Source: Oryzicola mucosus
GTDB taxonomy: Bacteria > Pseudomonadota > Alphaproteobacteria > Rhizobiales > Rhizobiaceae
Assembly: GCF_014534685.1 (NCBI RefSeq)
Contig: NZ_JACVVX010000004.1
Coordinates: 434,001 to 498,000, forward strand
Reading direction: 5' to 3'
DNA length: 64,000 bases
Below the pieces are notes generated by a model. That model was not told the DNA's origin. It searched no databases and was given only the letters and a program-made list of their open reading frames with translations. Within the stretch, counting starts at the first letter, position 1, and the number at the start of each line of letters is the position of its first letter. Below are positions 13,440 through 63,463 of the stretch, one piece after another. A program made the position numbers and the translations under genes.

Positions 13440-14258
13440 CTATTCCTTGACGGTCGAGATATCGGGGGCGTCCACCGCCTTCATGCCAACGACATGATAG
13501 CCGGAATCGACATGGTGGATTTCACCGGTTACGCCGCGCGACAGATCCGACAGGAAGTAAAGACCGGAATCGCCGACTTCCTCAGGTGTGACCGTACGCT
13601 TGAGCGGTGCATTATACTCGTTCCACTTCAGGATATAGCGGAAATCGCCGATGCCGGAAGCAGCCAGCGTCTTGATCGGGCCAGCCGATATGGCGTTGAC
13701 GCGGATGTTCTTCGAGCCCAAATCGACGGCGAGATAGCGCACGCTCGCCTCGAGCGCGGCCTTGGCAACGCCCATGACGTTGTAGTGCGGCATCACTTTT
13801 TCGGCGCCATAATAGGTCAGCGTCAGGAGCGAACCGCCGTCGGGCATCAGCTCTTCCGCGCGCTTGGCGATGGTGGTGAAGGAGAACACCGAGATGTCCA
13901 TGGTGCGCAGGAAATTGCCGTGGGTGGTGTCAATATAACGGCCGTCCAACTCGTCCTTGTCCGAGAAGGCAATGGCATGAACGACGAAGTCGATCTTGCC
14001 CCACTGCTTCTTGATCTCGTCGAACACCGCATCCAGGCTGGCCGGATCGGTCACGTCGCAATGGCCGGCGATATGCGCGCCAAGTTCCTTGGCGAGCGGC
14101 TCGACTCGCTTGCGGAAGGCCTCGCCCTGATAGGTCAGCGAGATTTCCGCGCCCTGCTCGGCGCAAGCCTTGGCGATGCCCCAGGCTATCGACCGGTTGT
14201 TGGCCACGCCCAGGATAAGCCCACGCTTGCCGGCCATCAGGCCCTGTCCAACTGCCAT
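13440..14258 (-). CDS. fabI: enoyl-[acyl-carrier-protein] reductase (NADH) FabI
   Basis: 272 residues, last step of each fatty-acid elongation cycle. Start MAVGQGLMAGKRG is preceded by GGAGAG at seven bases; a longer frame to 14354 has no support. Hallmarks are GVANNRSIAWGIA (NAD site), the YNVMGVAKAAL catalytic Tyr-x6-Lys, and a C-terminal LSRGVTGEIHHVDSG. Rhizobia often carry two FabI paralogues; only this copy is seen here. Confidence 0.95.
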   Translation of the reverse strand: MAVGQGLMAGKRGLILGVANNRSIAWGIAKACAEQGAEISLTYQGEAFRKRVEPLAKELGAHIAGHCDVTDPASLDAVFDEIKKQWGKIDFVVHAIAFSDKDELDGRYIDTTHGNFLRTMDISVFSFTTIAKRAEELMPDGGSLLTLTYYGAEKVMPHYNVMGVAKAALEASVRYLAVDLGSKNIRVNAISAGPIKTLAASGIGDFRYILKWNEYNAPLKRTVTPEEVGDSGLYFLSDLSRGVTGEIHHVDSGYHVVGMKAVDAPDISTVKE

Positions 14259-14372
14259 ATCAGCGCTCTCCGAAGTGTCTTTCTGGCTGTGCCTATCGCA
14301 TAGGCACCGAACAGCTTCAAGCTCTGGATGTGGACCGACCGGCGAAGCGCGCACGCTGTCGCCGGCGCAGCG

Positions 14373-15314
14373 TCATCCCTTGGCCTTGCGCATCAGCGAT
14401 TCGAGCTCCGCATCAGGCTCCGGCAGCATGATGCGGACATGCACGAACAGATCGCCATGGCCGCCATGCTTTTCAGGCAATCCCTTGCCCTTCAAACGCA
14501 GCACCTTGTCTGAGCTCGACCAGGCCGGCACGTTGACGGCGAGACGGCCGGTCGGCGTCTCCACCGCCACCTTCGCTCCGAGCACCGCATCGCGCAAAGG
14601 CACGGGTTGATCGACATGCAGGTCGCGTCCCTCCAGACGGTAGCGCGGATGCGAGCGGATGCGAATCTTCACCAGCGCATCGCCGGTGCCGCCCGGCCCC
14701 TGTTCGCCCTGGCCTTTCAGCCGGATGACCTGGCCGTCCTCGACGAAGTCCGGAAGCTTGACCGCTATCTTACGTCCGTCCGGGAACATCGCCGCGACCT
14801 TCGCAGCCGTCGCGACCTCCTCGATGCTTACGGCGAGCGCCACCTCGACATCGCCGCCCTTGGGCGGGACGCGCTGGCCGCCGCCCATGCCGGGGCCGCC
14901 GCGCTGCTGGCTGCCGAAAGCACCGCCGAAGAGCTGGCTGAAAATATCGTCACCCAGGCCTTCCGCACCTGGCCCGCCTGGCCCCGAAGAGCGGAATTCA
15001 TATCGTGTGCCGCCCGGCCCGCCCGCCGACTGGCGGCGGAAACCGGCGAAGGGATCGCCACCCGCGGCACCTTCGAAGCCCTGGAATCTCGGCTTGCCGT
15101 CAGCATCGATCTCGCCGCGATCGAAGGACGCCCTGGACTTCTCGTCGCCGAGAATTTCATAGGCCTGGTTGGCGGCGGCAAAGCGGTCGTTCGCCGAAGG
15201 ATCGTCCGGATTCTGGTCCGGGTGATACTTCTTGGCGAGCTTCCGAAACGCAGATTTTATGTCTTTTGCCGAGGCGTCCTTGGCGACGCCCAGCACCTGA
15301 TAAGGGTCGCGCAT
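14373..15314 (-). CDS. DnaJ-type co-chaperone (CbpA-like, no zinc finger)
   Basis: 313 residues. J domain at 1-70 with the HPD motif (KKYHPDQNP), a Gly-rich linker ([14 protein letters not shown] and beyond), then the DnaJ C-terminal substrate-binding domains ([25 protein letters not shown]). The CxxCxGxG zinc repeats of DnaJ are absent, as in CbpA. Start [10 protein letters not shown] is chosen; an ATG four codons upstream has no ribosome site. It lies between the RT0821-like lipoprotein gene and fabI. Confidence 0.9.
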
Positions 15315-57982: not shown

Positions 57983-59233
57983 TCAGCCATATCTTTGCAG
58001 CGACAGATCGCTGGTGTCGATATCGGCTTTGCGCCCGCTCACCAGATCGGCGACGATCCGCGCCGAGCCGGAACTCATGGTCCAACCGAGGGTGCCGTGT
58101 CCGGTGTTGAGGAACAGCCCGCCTATCCTGGTTGCGCCGATCACCGGCGTGCCATCAGGCGTCATCGGCCGAAGCCCCGACCAGAAGCTCGCCTGCGCCG
58201 GGTCGCCGCCGGGAAACAGATCGGTGACGGAATGCTCGAGCGTCCGGCGGCGCGGGAGCCCGAGATCGTTGGTGTAACCGGAAATCTCCGCCATGCCGCC
58301 GACACGGATGCGGTCGCCAAGCCGCGTAATCGCGATCTTGTACGTCTCGTCCATCACGGTGGATTCGGGCGCGCGGGTGGCGTCGACGATGGGAATGGTC
58401 AGCGAGTAGCCTTTTACCGGATAGACCGGCAGGCTGATGCCCGCCGGCTTGAGCAGAAGCGGCGAATAGCTGCCGAGCGCCACGACCACCGCATCGGATT
58501 TCAGCGGACCCTGATCGGTCAACACCCCCCTCACCGTCCCGGCTTCGATGTCGAGCGCCTTGACGGTGCGGCCATAGAGGAACTGGACGCCGAGTTCGGC
58601 GGCCCTGGCTGCCAGGGCGTTGGTGAATTTGAAACAGTCGCCGGTCTCGTCTTTGGGCGTCAGCAAGCCGCCGACGATCTTGTCGCGGACATGGCGAAGC
58701 GCTGGTTCCACCCGGATGCAGCCATCGCGATCAAGCACCTCATAGGGGATGCCGTCGGCGGCGAGCGCCTTGACGTCCTTGGCCGAGGCGTCGAGCTGCT
58801 GCTGGGTCCGGAAAAGCTGCAGCGTTCCCTGCATGCGCTCGTCATAGGCGATGCCGGTCTCGGCCCTGATCTCGGCGAGCGACGTGCGGCTGTAGTCGGA
58901 CAAACGCAGCATGCGGCTCTTGTTGATCGCATAGCGTTCCGAGGTGCAGTTTCTCAGCATCCGGATCATCCAGGAAATCATCGCCCAATCGACCTTGGGA
59001 CGCAGGATCAGCGGGGCATGTTCCATGAACAGCCATTTGATGGCCTTCTGCGGAATTCCGGGCGCCGCCCATGGAGAGCAATAGCCGAACGAGACCTCCC
59101 CGGCGTTTGCAAAGCTGGTTTCGAGCGCGGGCCCGGACTGCCGGTCAACAACCGTGACCTCATGTCCCGACTTGGCAAGCTGGTAGGCTGTCGTGACGCC
59201 GATGATCCCGGCGCCGAGAACTGTGACTTTCAT
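57983..59233 (-). CDS. dadA: D-amino acid dehydrogenase small subunit (DadA)
   Basis: 416 residues from [23 protein letters not shown], with GAGGATC before it. FAD-binding GxGxxG at the N-terminus and the DAAO-like substrate domain; [12 protein letters not shown] and [11 protein letters not shown] fit DadA. Oxidises D-alanine and similar D-amino acids to keto acids at the membrane. 26 bp after alr, forming the alr-dadA catabolic pair. Confidence 0.93.
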
Positions 59234-59259
59234 GGTGATCCTCAACGGTAGCGACGGGG

Positions 59260-60393
59260 TTAGAGATATTGGCGGCGGTAGCGATGACCGAGGCTGGTCA
59301 GGATTTCATAGGAGATGGTTCCGGCAGCTTCCGCAACGGCTTCCAAAGTCTGATTCGGCCCGATCACCTCGACGAGACTGCCAAGTCGCAGGGTCCCCTC
59401 AGGGAGAGCCGTGGCATCGACTGTGATGCTGTCCATCGATACGCGTCCGACAATGGGCAGGCGGACGCCCTGGTAGAAAACCGCGCCGCGGTTCGACAGG
59501 CTGCGCGGCAAGCCATCGGCATAGCCGGCGGCGATGGTAGCCAGCCGCATCTCGCCAGCGGTGACGTGGCTGCCGCCATAGCCGACAAGGGTTCCCGCCG
59601 GGATCGTCCGGGTCTGGATGACCGCCACATCGAGCCGGACTACCGGCTGCATGGGATTGGCCCGGCCCGCCGTCGGCGCACCGCCGTAAAGCGCTATACC
59701 CGTGCGGGCGAGATCGCCGTGATAATCGGGGCCGAGGAAGACGCCGCCGGAATTGGCGAAGCTGATGCCGAACTGCGGAAACTCGCTGGAAATTTTGCGC
59801 ATTTCGAGAAGCTGGTTGGCATTCTGCGTGCTGTCGACATCATCCGCCGACGCCAGATGGCTCATGACGAACAGCACGTCGAGTGAATCGGTAGCGGCCA
59901 GCTCCTCGGCAATCGCCCGCCTGTCCTGCGGGGGGATTCCCAGCCGCGCCATGCCCGTATCGAATTGCAGGATCGCTGGAAGCTTTCGCTGGAGCGTGAT
60001 CGCAAGGAAGGACCACCGCCTCAGTTGCTCCAGAGAATTGATGACGGGGATGATGCCGCTATCGGCGCAGGCCCTTTCATTGCCGGGCTGCAGTCCGTTC
60101 AGAACGAACAGTTTGGCATCCGCTGCAAGCGCCGGTCTGAGCGTCTCGGCCTCTTTGAAATGCGCAACGAAGAAATTGCGGCATCCAGACCCGTAGAGAG
60201 CCTGAGCGACGCGTTCCGCGCCCAGGCCATAGGCATCCGCCTTGACGACCGCGGCAGCCGGCGTCGATGCCAGAGCGGTGGACAGGATTTCGTAGTTCCG
60301 GCCGATGGCACTGAGATCGATCGTCAGATAGCCGGACTCGCCCGCTTTCTCCGCATCGTTCCCAGCCAGACTTTCCTGCCGTTCGCACGTCAT
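59260..60393 (-). CDS. alr: alanine racemase
   Basis: 377 residues. PLP lysine K51 in [15 protein letters not shown]; the second catalytic Tyr lies in [25 protein letters not shown]. An N-terminal extension ([16 protein letters not shown]) precedes the TIM barrel. As the partner of dadA and under the nearby Lrp-type regulator, it is probably the catabolic (DadX) form rather than the cell-wall one. Confidence 0.93.
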
Positions 60394-60431
60394 CAGCAGC
60401 CCTTTTCGCCAACGAGTGGATCATATTGAAA

Positions 60432-60452
60432 CGATGAGAGAATTTCTCATCG
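60432..60452. promoter_or_regulatory. palindrome between alr and lrp, likely Lrp operator
   Basis: CGATGAGA, GAATT, TCTCATCG: perfect 8-bp arms. It fits the 15-bp dyad form bound by Lrp/AsnC proteins. A second palindrome TGTTCG-A-CGAACA lies at 60493-60505. Confidence 0.6.
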
Positions 60453-60492
60453 ATCTTGGCTTGATCATTTCATTATTGCGTATTTTTTCGTA

Positions 60493-60505
60493 TGTTCGAC
60501 GAACA
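60493..60505. promoter_or_regulatory. second palindrome before the Lrp gene
   Basis: TGTTCG, A, CGAACA. 13 bp, 23 bp before the Lrp ATG. Possible autoregulation site. Confidence 0.4.
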
Positions 60506-60528
60506 AACGAAAGATCGTGCACATACCC

Positions 60529-60984
60529 ATGGACGCCATAGACCGCAAACTCATCCAGTTGCTTCGGCTCAATGCGCGGATGAGCAACGCCAAACTCGCG
60601 GCTGAAGTCGGGCTATCCGCCTCCGCCTGCCTGCGGCGGATCAACATTCTGGAAAGCAGCGGGATCATTCGCGGTTACACGGCGCTGGTCGACAATACCC
60701 TCGGCGAGAATGCCATTGCCGTGATCATCAACATCACGCTGGAGCGGCAGACCGAGGACTATCTGAACAGGTTCGAAGCGGCTGCGCGAAAGCACCCGGA
60801 TATTCAGGAGTGTTTCCTGATGACCGGCGGCGCCGACTACCTGCTGAAAGTGGAAGTCGCAAGCCCGGGCGAATTCGAGCGTATCCATAAGGAGATCCTC
60901 TCGACACTGCCGGGTGTTCTGAGAATCCATTCGAGCTTTTCAATCCGCAATGTGCTTGCCACCCGTGCCAAGGGCCGCCACTGA
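60529..60984 (+). CDS. Lrp/AsnC family transcriptional regulator
   Basis: 151 residues from MDAIDRKLIQLL; a GTG at 60517 is an alternative. Winged HTH (residues 5-60, NAKLAAEVGLSASACLRRINILESSG) and RAM domain (FLMTGGADYLLKVEVAS) are complete. Divergent from alr-dadA across 135 bp containing two palindromes, so it likely controls D-alanine use. Confidence 0.92.
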   Translation: MDAIDRKLIQLLRLNARMSNAKLAAEVGLSASACLRRINILESSGIIRGYTALVDNTLGENAIAVIINITLERQTEDYLNRFEAAARKHPDIQECFLMTGGADYLLKVEVASPGEFERIHKEILSTLPGVLRIHSSFSIRNVLATRAKGRH

Positions 60985-61045: not shown

Positions 61046-61060
61046 ATTATCGTCGGACAA
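61046..61060 (-). promoter_or_regulatory. additional FadR/GntR-like half-site
   Basis: Minus strand TTGTCCGACGATAAT matches the left arm of the main operator (TTGTCCCACAATAAT) at 13 of 15 bases. About 75 bp upstream of that operator. Confidence 0.45.
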
Positions 61061-61120: not shown

Positions 61121-61149
61121 TTGACATCAAACTTTTGTCCCACAATAAT
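61121..61149 (+). promoter_or_regulatory. promoter of the APH-ACAD-GntR operon
   Basis: TTGACA (61121-61126), 17-bp spacer, AATAAT (61144-61149). The transcript would start about 12 bases before the first ATG and include AGGAAG. Confidence 0.7.
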
Positions 61150-61158
61150 TGTGGGACA
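61136..61158. promoter_or_regulatory. 23-bp operator over the -10 box
   Basis: TGTCCCACAAT, A, ATTGTGGGACA: perfect 11-bp arms. Each arm with its flank reads T-x-G-T-x3-A-C-x-A, the FadR-subfamily GntR site. The -10 lies in its centre, so binding would block transcription. Confidence 0.75.
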
Positions 61159-61168
61159 GGAAGCTCTG

Positions 61169-62275
61169 ATGACCCCGTCCTCAATATCTCCCGCCTTAGC
61201 AGAAATCATGCCCGCAGGCTTGAATTTGCTGCCTGTGGAGCGTGGCACGCCCTTGGACAGTGGGCGTGTCGCTGTCGAACTGGCTGGTCACGGCATCGAT
61301 ATCGACGGCGACTTCAAACCGCGGCAATTCGCGGGCGGGCTCGCCAATCTCAATTATCTGCTCAAGCTCGAGTCGGGCTGGGCCGTGCTCCGCCGGCCGC
61401 CGGGCGGTCCGCTGCCGCCCGGCGCGAACGACATGGCGCGAGAACATCGCATTCTGTCGAAGCTCTGGCGGGCGCTGCCGCTTGCGCCACGCAGCCTGCA
61501 TCTGTGCGCCGACACCGGCGTCATCGGCGTGCCGTTCCAAATCCTCGAATTTCGCACCGGCCAGGCCATTCGCGGCGATGAATTGCATCCCCTGCCTGAA
61601 ACAGCCGAGACCGGGGGGGCGCTGTCGGCGATGCTGATCGAGACGCTTGCCCAGGTTCACGAGGTCAAGCCGGAAGCCGTTGGTTTGGAGACGCTGGGAC
61701 GGCCGGAAGGGTTCTTCGCGCGGCAGGCCGAAGGCTGGATAAAGCGCGCCGTTCATGTCTATGGCGGGACACTTCCGGCAGCGGCCGCAGAGGTTGCCGG
61801 ATGGCTTAAAAACACCCCGCAACCGCCGGAAGACGCGACGGTGTTGCTGCATTCCGATTTCAAGCTCGACAACATCCTGCTCGACCCTGCCACACTGCAA
61901 CCCGGCACCATCGTCGATTGGGACATGGGCACGCGCGGCCCGGCACTTTTCGACCTCGCCACGATGCTGTCCTACTGGACCGAACCCGGCGACCCCGACT
62001 GCATGCACCGCCTGGCGCAGATGCCCACCGCCAAAGCGGGCTTTCTGTCACGCGCGGAGGCTGCACAAGCCTACGCCCAACACACCGGCCGTTCGATCGA
62101 GGCCATCCGGCCCTATCGTGTTCTGACGATCTTCAAGCTCGCGGTCGTCTTTCTGCAGCTTCACCATCGCCATCTCACCGGCGAAACCACAGACCCTCGC
62201 TATGTCGGCTTCGGCTCGATCGGCGAGGAGCTTTTTGCCCTTGCGCTCGACGTTGCACGCGGCCGCCTGTTCTGA
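61169..62275 (+). CDS. APH-fold phosphotransferase, ACAD11/LvaA-like
   Basis: 368 residues from MTPSSISPAL, AGGAAG eight bases upstream. The kinase core is complete: GGLANLNYLL (Gly-rich loop area), HSDFKLDNILL (catalytic H-x-D-x4-N) and DWDMG (metal Asp). The overall form matches the N-terminal kinase domain of animal ACAD10/11 and the LvaA protein of Pseudomonas putida, which phosphorylates 4-hydroxyacyl-CoA; that function is inferred by homology and by the ACAD gene 12 bp downstream. Confidence 0.87.
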   Translation: MTPSSISPALAEIMPAGLNLLPVERGTPLDSGRVAVELAGHGIDIDGDFKPRQFAGGLANLNYLLKLESGWAVLRRPPGGPLPPGANDMAREHRILSKLWRALPLAPRSLHLCADTGVIGVPFQILEFRTGQAIRGDELHPLPETAETGGALSAMLIETLAQVHEVKPEAVGLETLGRPEGFFARQAEGWIKRAVHVYGGTLPAAAAEVAGWLKNTPQPPEDATVLLHSDFKLDNILLDPATLQPGTIVDWDMGTRGPALFDLATMLSYWTEPGDPDCMHRLAQMPTAKAGFLSRAEAAQAYAQHTGRSIEAIRPYRVLTIFKLAVVFLQLHHRHLTGETTDPRYVGFGSIGEELFALALDVARGRLF

Positions 62276-62287
62276 AGGAACCACCTC

Positions 62288-63463
62288 ATGGACTTCGCCC
62301 TATCGCCCGAACTCGAGGCGCTTGAAGCCAAAACGCGCAGCTTCATACGCGAGCAGATCATTCCTTTCGAGAAGGATGCACGCCGTGCCGCACACGGTCC
62401 GGAAGACTCGCTGCGGATCGAACTGGTAGCCCTTGCCCGCAACGAAGGGCTTCTGACCCCCCAGGCCTCGCACGACTTCGGCGGCCTTGGCCTCAGCCAT
62501 CTCGGCAAGGCTGTGGTGCTGGAGGCATCGGGCTATTCCATGCTTGGCCCTATCGCCATGAATTGCGCCGCACCCGACGAGGGCAACATGCATCTCATGG
62601 AGGCGGTTGCGACCGAAGCGCAGAAGGAGCGTTGGCTGCGCCCGATGACGGAAGGCCGAAGCCGGTCCTGCTTCTGCATGACGGAACCAAGCCCCGGCAC
62701 CGGCTCCGATCCCTCGGCGCTCCGCACCACGGCGGTGAAGCAGGGCGACCGCTTCGTCATCAACGGCCGCAAATGGCTGATCACCGGCGCTGAAGGCGCC
62801 GCCTATGCCATCATCATGGCACGCACCATCGTCGACGGCGAGGATGTCGGCGCGACGATGTTCCTGACCGACCTTCCGGCCAAGGGTTTTACCATCGCGC
62901 GCACGCTCGACACGATGGATTCGAGCTTTTCCGGCGGTCATGCAGTGATCGACTTCGAGAACCTGGAAGTTCCGGAAAGCGACGTGCTGGGCGCGGTCGG
63001 CAAGGGATTTCACTATGCCCAGGTTCGGCTGGTGCCGGCGCGGCTGACCCACTGCATGCGCTGGCTGGGCGCAGCGCAAAGGGCGCATGACATCGCCGTC
63101 GACTATGCCGCGCGGCGCGAGGCTTTTGGCGTGCCGCTCGCCCAGCACGAAGGCGTGGGCTTCATGCTGGCCGACAACGCCATCGACCTGCACATGACGC
63201 GCCTCGGCGTCCGTCATTGCGCCTGGCTGCTCGACCAGGGCGCGCGGGGCGCAGCCGAAAGCAGCATGATCAAGGTACAGGCTTCGGAAGCGGTGTTCCG
63301 CGTCGCCGACCGCGCAGTCCAAATTCTGGGCGGCATGGGCGTCACCCGCGAAACCGAGGTCGAGCGCATTTTTCGCGATGTCCGCGCCTTCCGGATCTAT
63401 GACGGCCCCTCGGAGGTTCACCGCTGGAGCATTGCGCGCAGGCTTTTCAGGAAGGCGTCATGA
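62288..63463 (+). CDS. acyl-CoA dehydrogenase family protein, ACAD10/11-like
   Basis: 391 residues. All domains present: CMTEPSPGTGSDPSALRTT (flavin/substrate loop) and NGRKWLITGAE. The classic base motif YEGTS is YDGPSEVH, with Asp372 instead of Glu, exactly the variation of ACAD10/11 (DGPDEVH). It probably eliminates phosphate from 4-phosphoacyl-CoA or reduces rather than dehydrogenates; inference. Coupled to the kinase gene (12 bp) and the regulator gene (ATGA overlap). Confidence 0.9.
   Translation: MDFALSPELEALEAKTRSFIREQIIPFEKDARRAAHGPEDSLRIELVALARNEGLLTPQASHDFGGLGLSHLGKAVVLEASGYSMLGPIAMNCAAPDEGNMHLMEAVATEAQKERWLRPMTEGRSRSCFCMTEPSPGTGSDPSALRTTAVKQGDRFVINGRKWLITGAEGAAYAIIMARTIVDGEDVGATMFLTDLPAKGFTIARTLDTMDSSFSGGHAVIDFENLEVPESDVLGAVGKGFHYAQVRLVPARLTHCMRWLGAAQRAHDIAVDYAARREAFGVPLAQHEGVGFMLADNAIDLHMTRLGVRHCAWLLDQGARGAAESSMIKVQASEAVFRVADRAVQILGGMGVTRETEVERIFRDVRAFRIYDGPSEVHRWSIARRLFRKAS

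Follow-up and report, generated by a model that had tools for sequence, protein, structure and literature searches.

A predicted phosphorylation route for 4-hydroxy acids in Oryzicola mucosus: a kinase-dehydrogenase operon with its own GntR/FCD regulator

The enzymes for the phosphorylation route of 4-hydroxy acids were assigned in 2017 in bacteria and only in 2024-2025 in mammals. Among the known systems, the lva operon of Pseudomonas putida (lvaR-lvaABCDE, levulinate) carries an APH-type kinase gene next to the LvaC-type dehydrogenase gene, and mammalian ACAD10/ACAD11 combine the two activities in one fused protein. In a 64,000-nucleotide stretch of the Oryzicola mucosus genome (here the window), a stand-alone APH-type kinase gene (KIN) adjoins an acyl-CoA dehydrogenase gene (ACAD) and is followed by a regulator gene. 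Does this locus serve the same chemistry and, if so, is it an lva operon in reduced form or an arrangement of its own? We consider it quite probable that KIN and ACAD bring 4-hydroxy acids into beta-oxidation by addition and subsequent removal of a phosphate, under a GntR/FCD repressor. The locus is very probably a separately controlled bacterial variant of the pathway known as lva in Pseudomonas and as ACAD10/11 in animals.

The two enzymes and their active-site residues

The locus lies within contig C23 of the 4.9-Mb host genome, and its features are listed in Table 1. The first-pass annotation had described the kinase and dehydrogenase as adjoining genes 12 bp apart, with motifs HSDFKLDN and DWDMG in the one and Asp372 within DGPSEVH in the other; genes, gap and motifs were all located as described. 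The regulator start overlaps the ACAD stop codon as ATGA (4-bp overlap). Directly upstream (57983-60984) an alanine racemase gene and a D-amino acid dehydrogenase gene occupy the minus strand and diverge from the gene of an Lrp/AsnC regulator; they form an ordinary D-alanine catabolic cluster with apparently no relation to the KIN operon.

Table 1. Features of the KIN-ACAD-regulator locus (window positions)
Feature	Position	Strand	Remarks
Upstream operator box TCGTCGGACAA, FadR-subfamily type GTCNGAC	61050..61060	+	candidate
Sigma-70-like promoter TTGACA-17-AATAAT	61121..61149	+	11/12 consensus matches
Perfect palindrome TGTCCCACAAT-A-ATTGTGGGACA, 11-bp arms, overlaps -10	61136..61158	+	unique in genome
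KIN, stand-alone APH-type kinase, predicted 4-hydroxyacyl-CoA kinase	61169..62275	+	D230, N235, D250, R91, R185
ACAD, LvaC/ACAD10-11-type acyl-CoA dehydrogenase, predicted 4-phosphoacyl-CoA to 2-enoyl-CoA	62288..63463	+	R247, R252, H255-C-M-R258, P96, D372
GntR/FCD regulator, 258 aa	63460..64236 (beyond 64000 window end)	+	GntR and FCD domains; D159, H163, H207, H229

ACAD is a protein of 391 aa carrying all acyl-CoA dehydrogenase domains. In ACAD11 the 4-phosphate is held by R626, H634 and R637 (with the HCMR motif), R631 is common to other ACADs, the base is Asp (D753) and not Glu, and substitution of R626/H634/R637 causes the phospho-intermediate to build up (PMC12440821). A pocket-widening Pro has also been described (PMC11342911). 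In our alignment the full reported 4-phosphoacyl-CoA site is present in ACAD (residues in Table 1), which is complete at every ACAD11 residue implicated by mutation or modelling (R626, R631, H634, R637, D753) and also has the Pro. The same set is kept in nearly all aligned relatives at 46% identity or more (a few of the aligned rows being truncated), the exceptions at His being L054 and L061. No host ACAD paralogue that was scored in the alignment is complete at these positions; the sites of these paralogues are ordinary, with a partial motif in one host acyl-CoA dehydrogenase, L076. The latter, with its partial HCMR, was considered and set aside, as it has no equivalent of R626 and no adjoining kinase. 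Another host acyl-CoA dehydrogenase (L157:8600-9814; contig C4, about 13600-14814) carries HCMR and DGPDEVH with Ser replacing the phosphate-binding Arg; it clusters with an AMP-binding ligase, an FMN oxidoreductase and a thioesterase, and no kinase adjoins it.

ACAD is 65.6% identical to the LvaC that plasmid p12939 encodes in a complete LvaR-LvaA-LvaB-LvaC-LvaD-LvaE locus, recognised from its gene order and annotated lvaB, and only 34.5% identical overall to human ACAD11. By identities and in a quick tree (SH-aLRT support) it groups with LvaC, away from ordinary acyl-CoA dehydrogenases, and its best solved-structure matches include ACAD11. From its Arg, HCMR, Asp and Pro residues ACAD is predicted to be a 4-phosphoacyl-CoA processing dehydrogenase. 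A second dehydrogenase type is present in the Pseudomonas genomes L105-L108 and L114, that of L105 being 57% identical to human ACAD11; it is distinct from the lva-operon LvaC, which reaches only about 33% against ACAD11 here. The published identities of LvaC to ACAD10/11, 62%/56% (PMC11342911), suit this second type (L105) better than the lva-operon LvaC.

KIN (368 aa counted from the ATG) scores 134.8 bits against Pfam APH and carries the catalytic motifs HSDFKLDN at residues 228-235 (D230, N235) and DWDMG at 250 (D250). Its R185 aligns with ACAD11 R176, a modelled CoA contact (PMC12440821), so that KIN combines the APH motifs with the CoA-contact Arg of ACAD10/11-type kinases. R91 adjoins the alpha-C Glu; no correspondence between it and R86 of the ACAD11 paper could be established by residue numbering. 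The solved-structure relatives of KIN are 9o56 (38.6%), 3dxp and ACAD11, and its identity to mouse ACAD11 is 28.8%. The generic family annotations (APH, Acyl-CoA_dh) would also suit an ordinary aminoglycoside kinase next to a standard medium-chain acyl-CoA dehydrogenase, a reading we regard as very improbable: ACAD has Asp for the Glu base, HCMR and the phosphate-binding Arg/His, which the ordinary paralogues of the host lack, and ACAD11 is among the structural relatives of both proteins. Best matches of that ordinary kind, which the first-pass annotation had named as a refutation, were not seen at the level of sequence.

LvaA of the lva locus is 25.8% identical to KIN and lacks both arginines (R91 and R185 positions), and KIN is closer by score to the ACAD11 kinase domain than to the LvaA type. 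In a tree of 64 kinases, built by a quick method with SH-aLRT support and no bootstrap, the LvaB-linked kinases form a single clade (11/11, SH-aLRT 100), and KIN is placed outside it, in a group whose 26 members lack LvaB. No LvaB was detectable in the host genome (best E 0.15). Given its clade, its residues and the absence of LvaB from the genome, KIN does not belong with the LvaA that pairs with LvaB, and its type apparently works without that subunit. The chemistry of LvaA/LvaC and ACAD10/11 that had been proposed for the pair is supported, ACAD being LvaC-type with a full phosphate motif and both proteins having ACAD11 among their best solved-structure matches; it is refined in that KIN is not of the LvaA clade.

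The GntR/FCD regulator and the boxes upstream of KIN

The regulator had been annotated as FadR/GntR. It does belong to the FadR subfamily, as a protein of the FCD type; it scores far under the NCBIfam FadR cut-offs and is therefore not the acyl-CoA-binding FadR proper. The four residues given in Table 1 are all kept and fit what we take to be the FCD metal/carboxylate site. Operators of the FadR subfamily are palindromes with TKGT/ACMA boxes in which GT and AC are usually separated by 3 nt (PMC4494728). The locus has the GntR helix-turn-helix, the FCD domain and GT-N3-AC boxes upstream of the operon, and the TNGTCNGACNA boxes match the subfamily consensus (PMC4494728).

The sequence GTCNSACAATAA occurs three times in the 4.9-Mb genome. 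Two of these sites lie upstream of KIN, one of them over the -10, and the third precedes a separate GntR/FCD gene adjoining a TRAP-type binding protein. The box TTGTCCCACAA (61135-61145) lies across the -10 within the region of the palindrome; a genome-wide search that tolerated up to 3 mismatches found the palindrome itself nowhere else. Among related loci, GTCNGAC occurs upstream of KIN in 10/11 with a linked GntR gene versus 3/20 in which no GntR was found; in the GntR-linked loci it was counted 19 times against 1.3 expected from mononucleotide shuffling, the loci compared being mutually related and the counts not independent events. In several loci (among L006-L009, L048 and the window) the distance between the two boxes is 63, 73 or 85 bp, near multiples of the helical turn; such spacing would be compatible with binding to a single face of the DNA or with looping.

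This comparison shows the association of box and regulator; binding of the regulator to the boxes and its response to a ligand are predicted. The regulator would repress its own operon via the pair of boxes ahead of KIN, of which one overlaps the -10, and a carboxylate ligand would release it. The conserved operator boxes lend support to the earlier claim that the operon has its own repressor. A search for known RNA elements found none. In a literature search we found no description of a FadR-subfamily regulator controlling a kinase/LvaC pair.

Related loci and the partner genes

A protein search with ACAD yielded 67 named ACAD-related loci, and an APH-type kinase adjoins the ACAD relative in more than half of them. 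This frequency, together with purifying selection on KIN, ACAD and the regulator gene (dN/dS 0.09-0.26 versus closest homologues), argues that the pairing is not due to chance. In 31/67 loci no kinase above thresholds was present within the fetched flank, and a homologous kinase was found elsewhere in 9/10 tested genomes of such loci. The betaproteobacterial dehydrogenases of L011 and L013-L018 (67-70% identical to ACAD, full active site) have no kinase found nearby, with homologous kinases elsewhere in the genomes tested. In G208, a genome of the host's family, the kinase upstream of an LvaC-type gene (L153:6221-6559) matches over a 113-aa frame only and may be broken or shortened; ACAD and GntR are kept at that locus.

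A fuller operon, KIN-ACAD-SDR-CoA transferase III-AMP-binding ligase-GntR, is present in at least 7 of the 67 loci, its carriers including Aquamicrobium LC103, an Alcaligenaceae bacterium and three pseudomonads, and the layout is also found in G248 (L152), of the host's family. With an SDR, a CoA transferase and a ligase, these sister operons encode the kinds of enzyme needed for making 4-hydroxyacyl-CoA. Since the nearest relatives of the window copy in both the ACAD and the KIN trees, L003 and L004, keep the full operon, the three genes in the middle were most likely lost from the window copy; no remnants of them were found between ACAD and the regulator gene. The lvaB, lvaD and lvaE partners had been reported as absent from the window: no LvaB was detected genome-wide, and the SDR and ligase present in sister operons were most likely lost here.

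With three partner genes missing that both sister loci have, the window copy could be read as a relic, i.e. a kinase-dehydrogenase pair left without a pathway. We think this improbable, because the three genes are intact and under the selection given above, every catalytic residue is retained, the promoter is near consensus and accompanied by operators, and the same KIN-ACAD-GntR arrangement recurs in L050. Against the pathway stand the missing genes and the weakness of their stand-ins in the host (ligase 55%, CoA transferase at most 41% and SDR at most 43% identity). The host ligase, at C22:32007-33656, was rejected as partner; it lies inside an Opp/Dpp-type (peptide-transport-type) operon with its own GntR/FCD gene.

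Within the host family ACAD has a patchy distribution, being present in 8/297 genomes, and it is 81% identical to the protein of a record labelled Alcaligenaceae, i.e. another class; the two facts together suggest horizontal transfer. The ACAD of L048, Corticibacterium sp. (Phyllobacteriaceae), is identical to one from a genome that belongs to the same genus as the host, which makes the host a Phyllobacteriaceae-type alphaproteobacterium.

Proposed pathway and its likely substrate

We propose that a 4-hydroxyacyl-CoA would be formed by an acyl-CoA ligase or a CoA transferase whose gene is unlinked, and that KIN would phosphorylate the 4-hydroxyl with ATP and with no LvaB subunit. ACAD, its phosphate-holding residues presumably being R247, H255 and R258, would then remove the phosphate using FAD and D372 to give the 2-enoyl-CoA, as suggested by its complete conserved site and the published ACAD10/11 chemistry. 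The two chemical steps, phosphorylation and then phosphate removal, are well supported by inference. The substrate is most likely a short-chain 4-hydroxy or 4-oxo acid.

A strict levulinate/4-hydroxyvalerate pathway, i.e. the lva substrate handled by another kinase and regulator, would agree with the identity of ACAD to LvaC and with the SDR and acyl-CoA ligase of the sister operons, which are the LvaD/LvaE kinds of activity. These are not close to LvaD/LvaE themselves, however, the sister ligases scoring about 95-130 bits against LvaE and 700-1260 bits against each other, and the regulator and CoA transferase also differ from lva. Furthermore, P. putida ASAD carries a fuller operon of the KIN type and an lva-type LvaC in one genome, and the presence of both dehydrogenase types suggests different substrates. 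We therefore judge a strict levulinate pathway rather unlikely. Somewhat more plausible, though still tentative, is the same chemistry on another hydroxyacyl-CoA, such as 4-hydroxybutyryl-CoA or the CoA ester of a 4-hydroxy acid with a branch or a ring. A less common acid is hinted at in the sister operons by their CoA transferase III and MbcS-like ligase. There is also, 4.7 kb beyond the regulator, a gene of the 4-hydroxybutyrate dehydrogenase type, but in a separate transcription unit.

Homologues of lvaABCD are widespread in Alpha-, Beta- and Gammaproteobacteria, and the P. citronellolis cluster likewise lacks lvaB (PMC6692424). The window locus shares with the lva operon (lvaABCDE and LvaR) the LvaC-type gene only and does not belong to it. 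Both have a kinase gene adjoining that gene, and the sister operons also resemble lva in their SDR and ligase; however, the window kinase is from another clade, there is no LvaB, GntR/FCD replaces the sigma54-type LvaR, the sister operons add CoA transferase III, and the window copy is without SDR and ligase. With ACAD10/ACAD11 it shares the two predicted activities, the complete Arg/His/HCMR/Asp site, the kinase motifs and the Arg equivalent to R176, whereas it has two separate genes, in an operon with its own regulator, in place of the fused protein. The literature search found no description of a GntR/FCD-linked, LvaB-less arrangement. On balance we lean towards a second route in bacteria that was assembled separately: a clade of stand-alone kinases would take the place of LvaA and LvaB, a GntR/FCD repressor with FadR-type operators that of LvaR, and a non-levulinate acid that of levulinate, some bacteria having both routes.

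The locus thus presents a further gene arrangement for the phosphorylation of 4-hydroxy acids, with a kinase apparently free of LvaB. With only two proteins, KIN and ACAD would allow the kinase step and the dephosphorylation step to be studied in a simple system. The repressor-operator pair is testable and could report on 4-hydroxy acids, and the locus offers a way to find non-levulinate natural substrates of this phosphate-based chemistry. The 4-hydroxybutyrate dehydrogenase-type gene mentioned above (window-equivalent 68968-70158; L002:12968-14158) encodes an iron-type alcohol dehydrogenase that scores 543 bits against the NCBIfam 4-hydroxybutyrate dehydrogenase cut-off of 500; it adjoins SDR and TRAP transporter genes and is noted here as a lead to a possible 4-hydroxy acid link.
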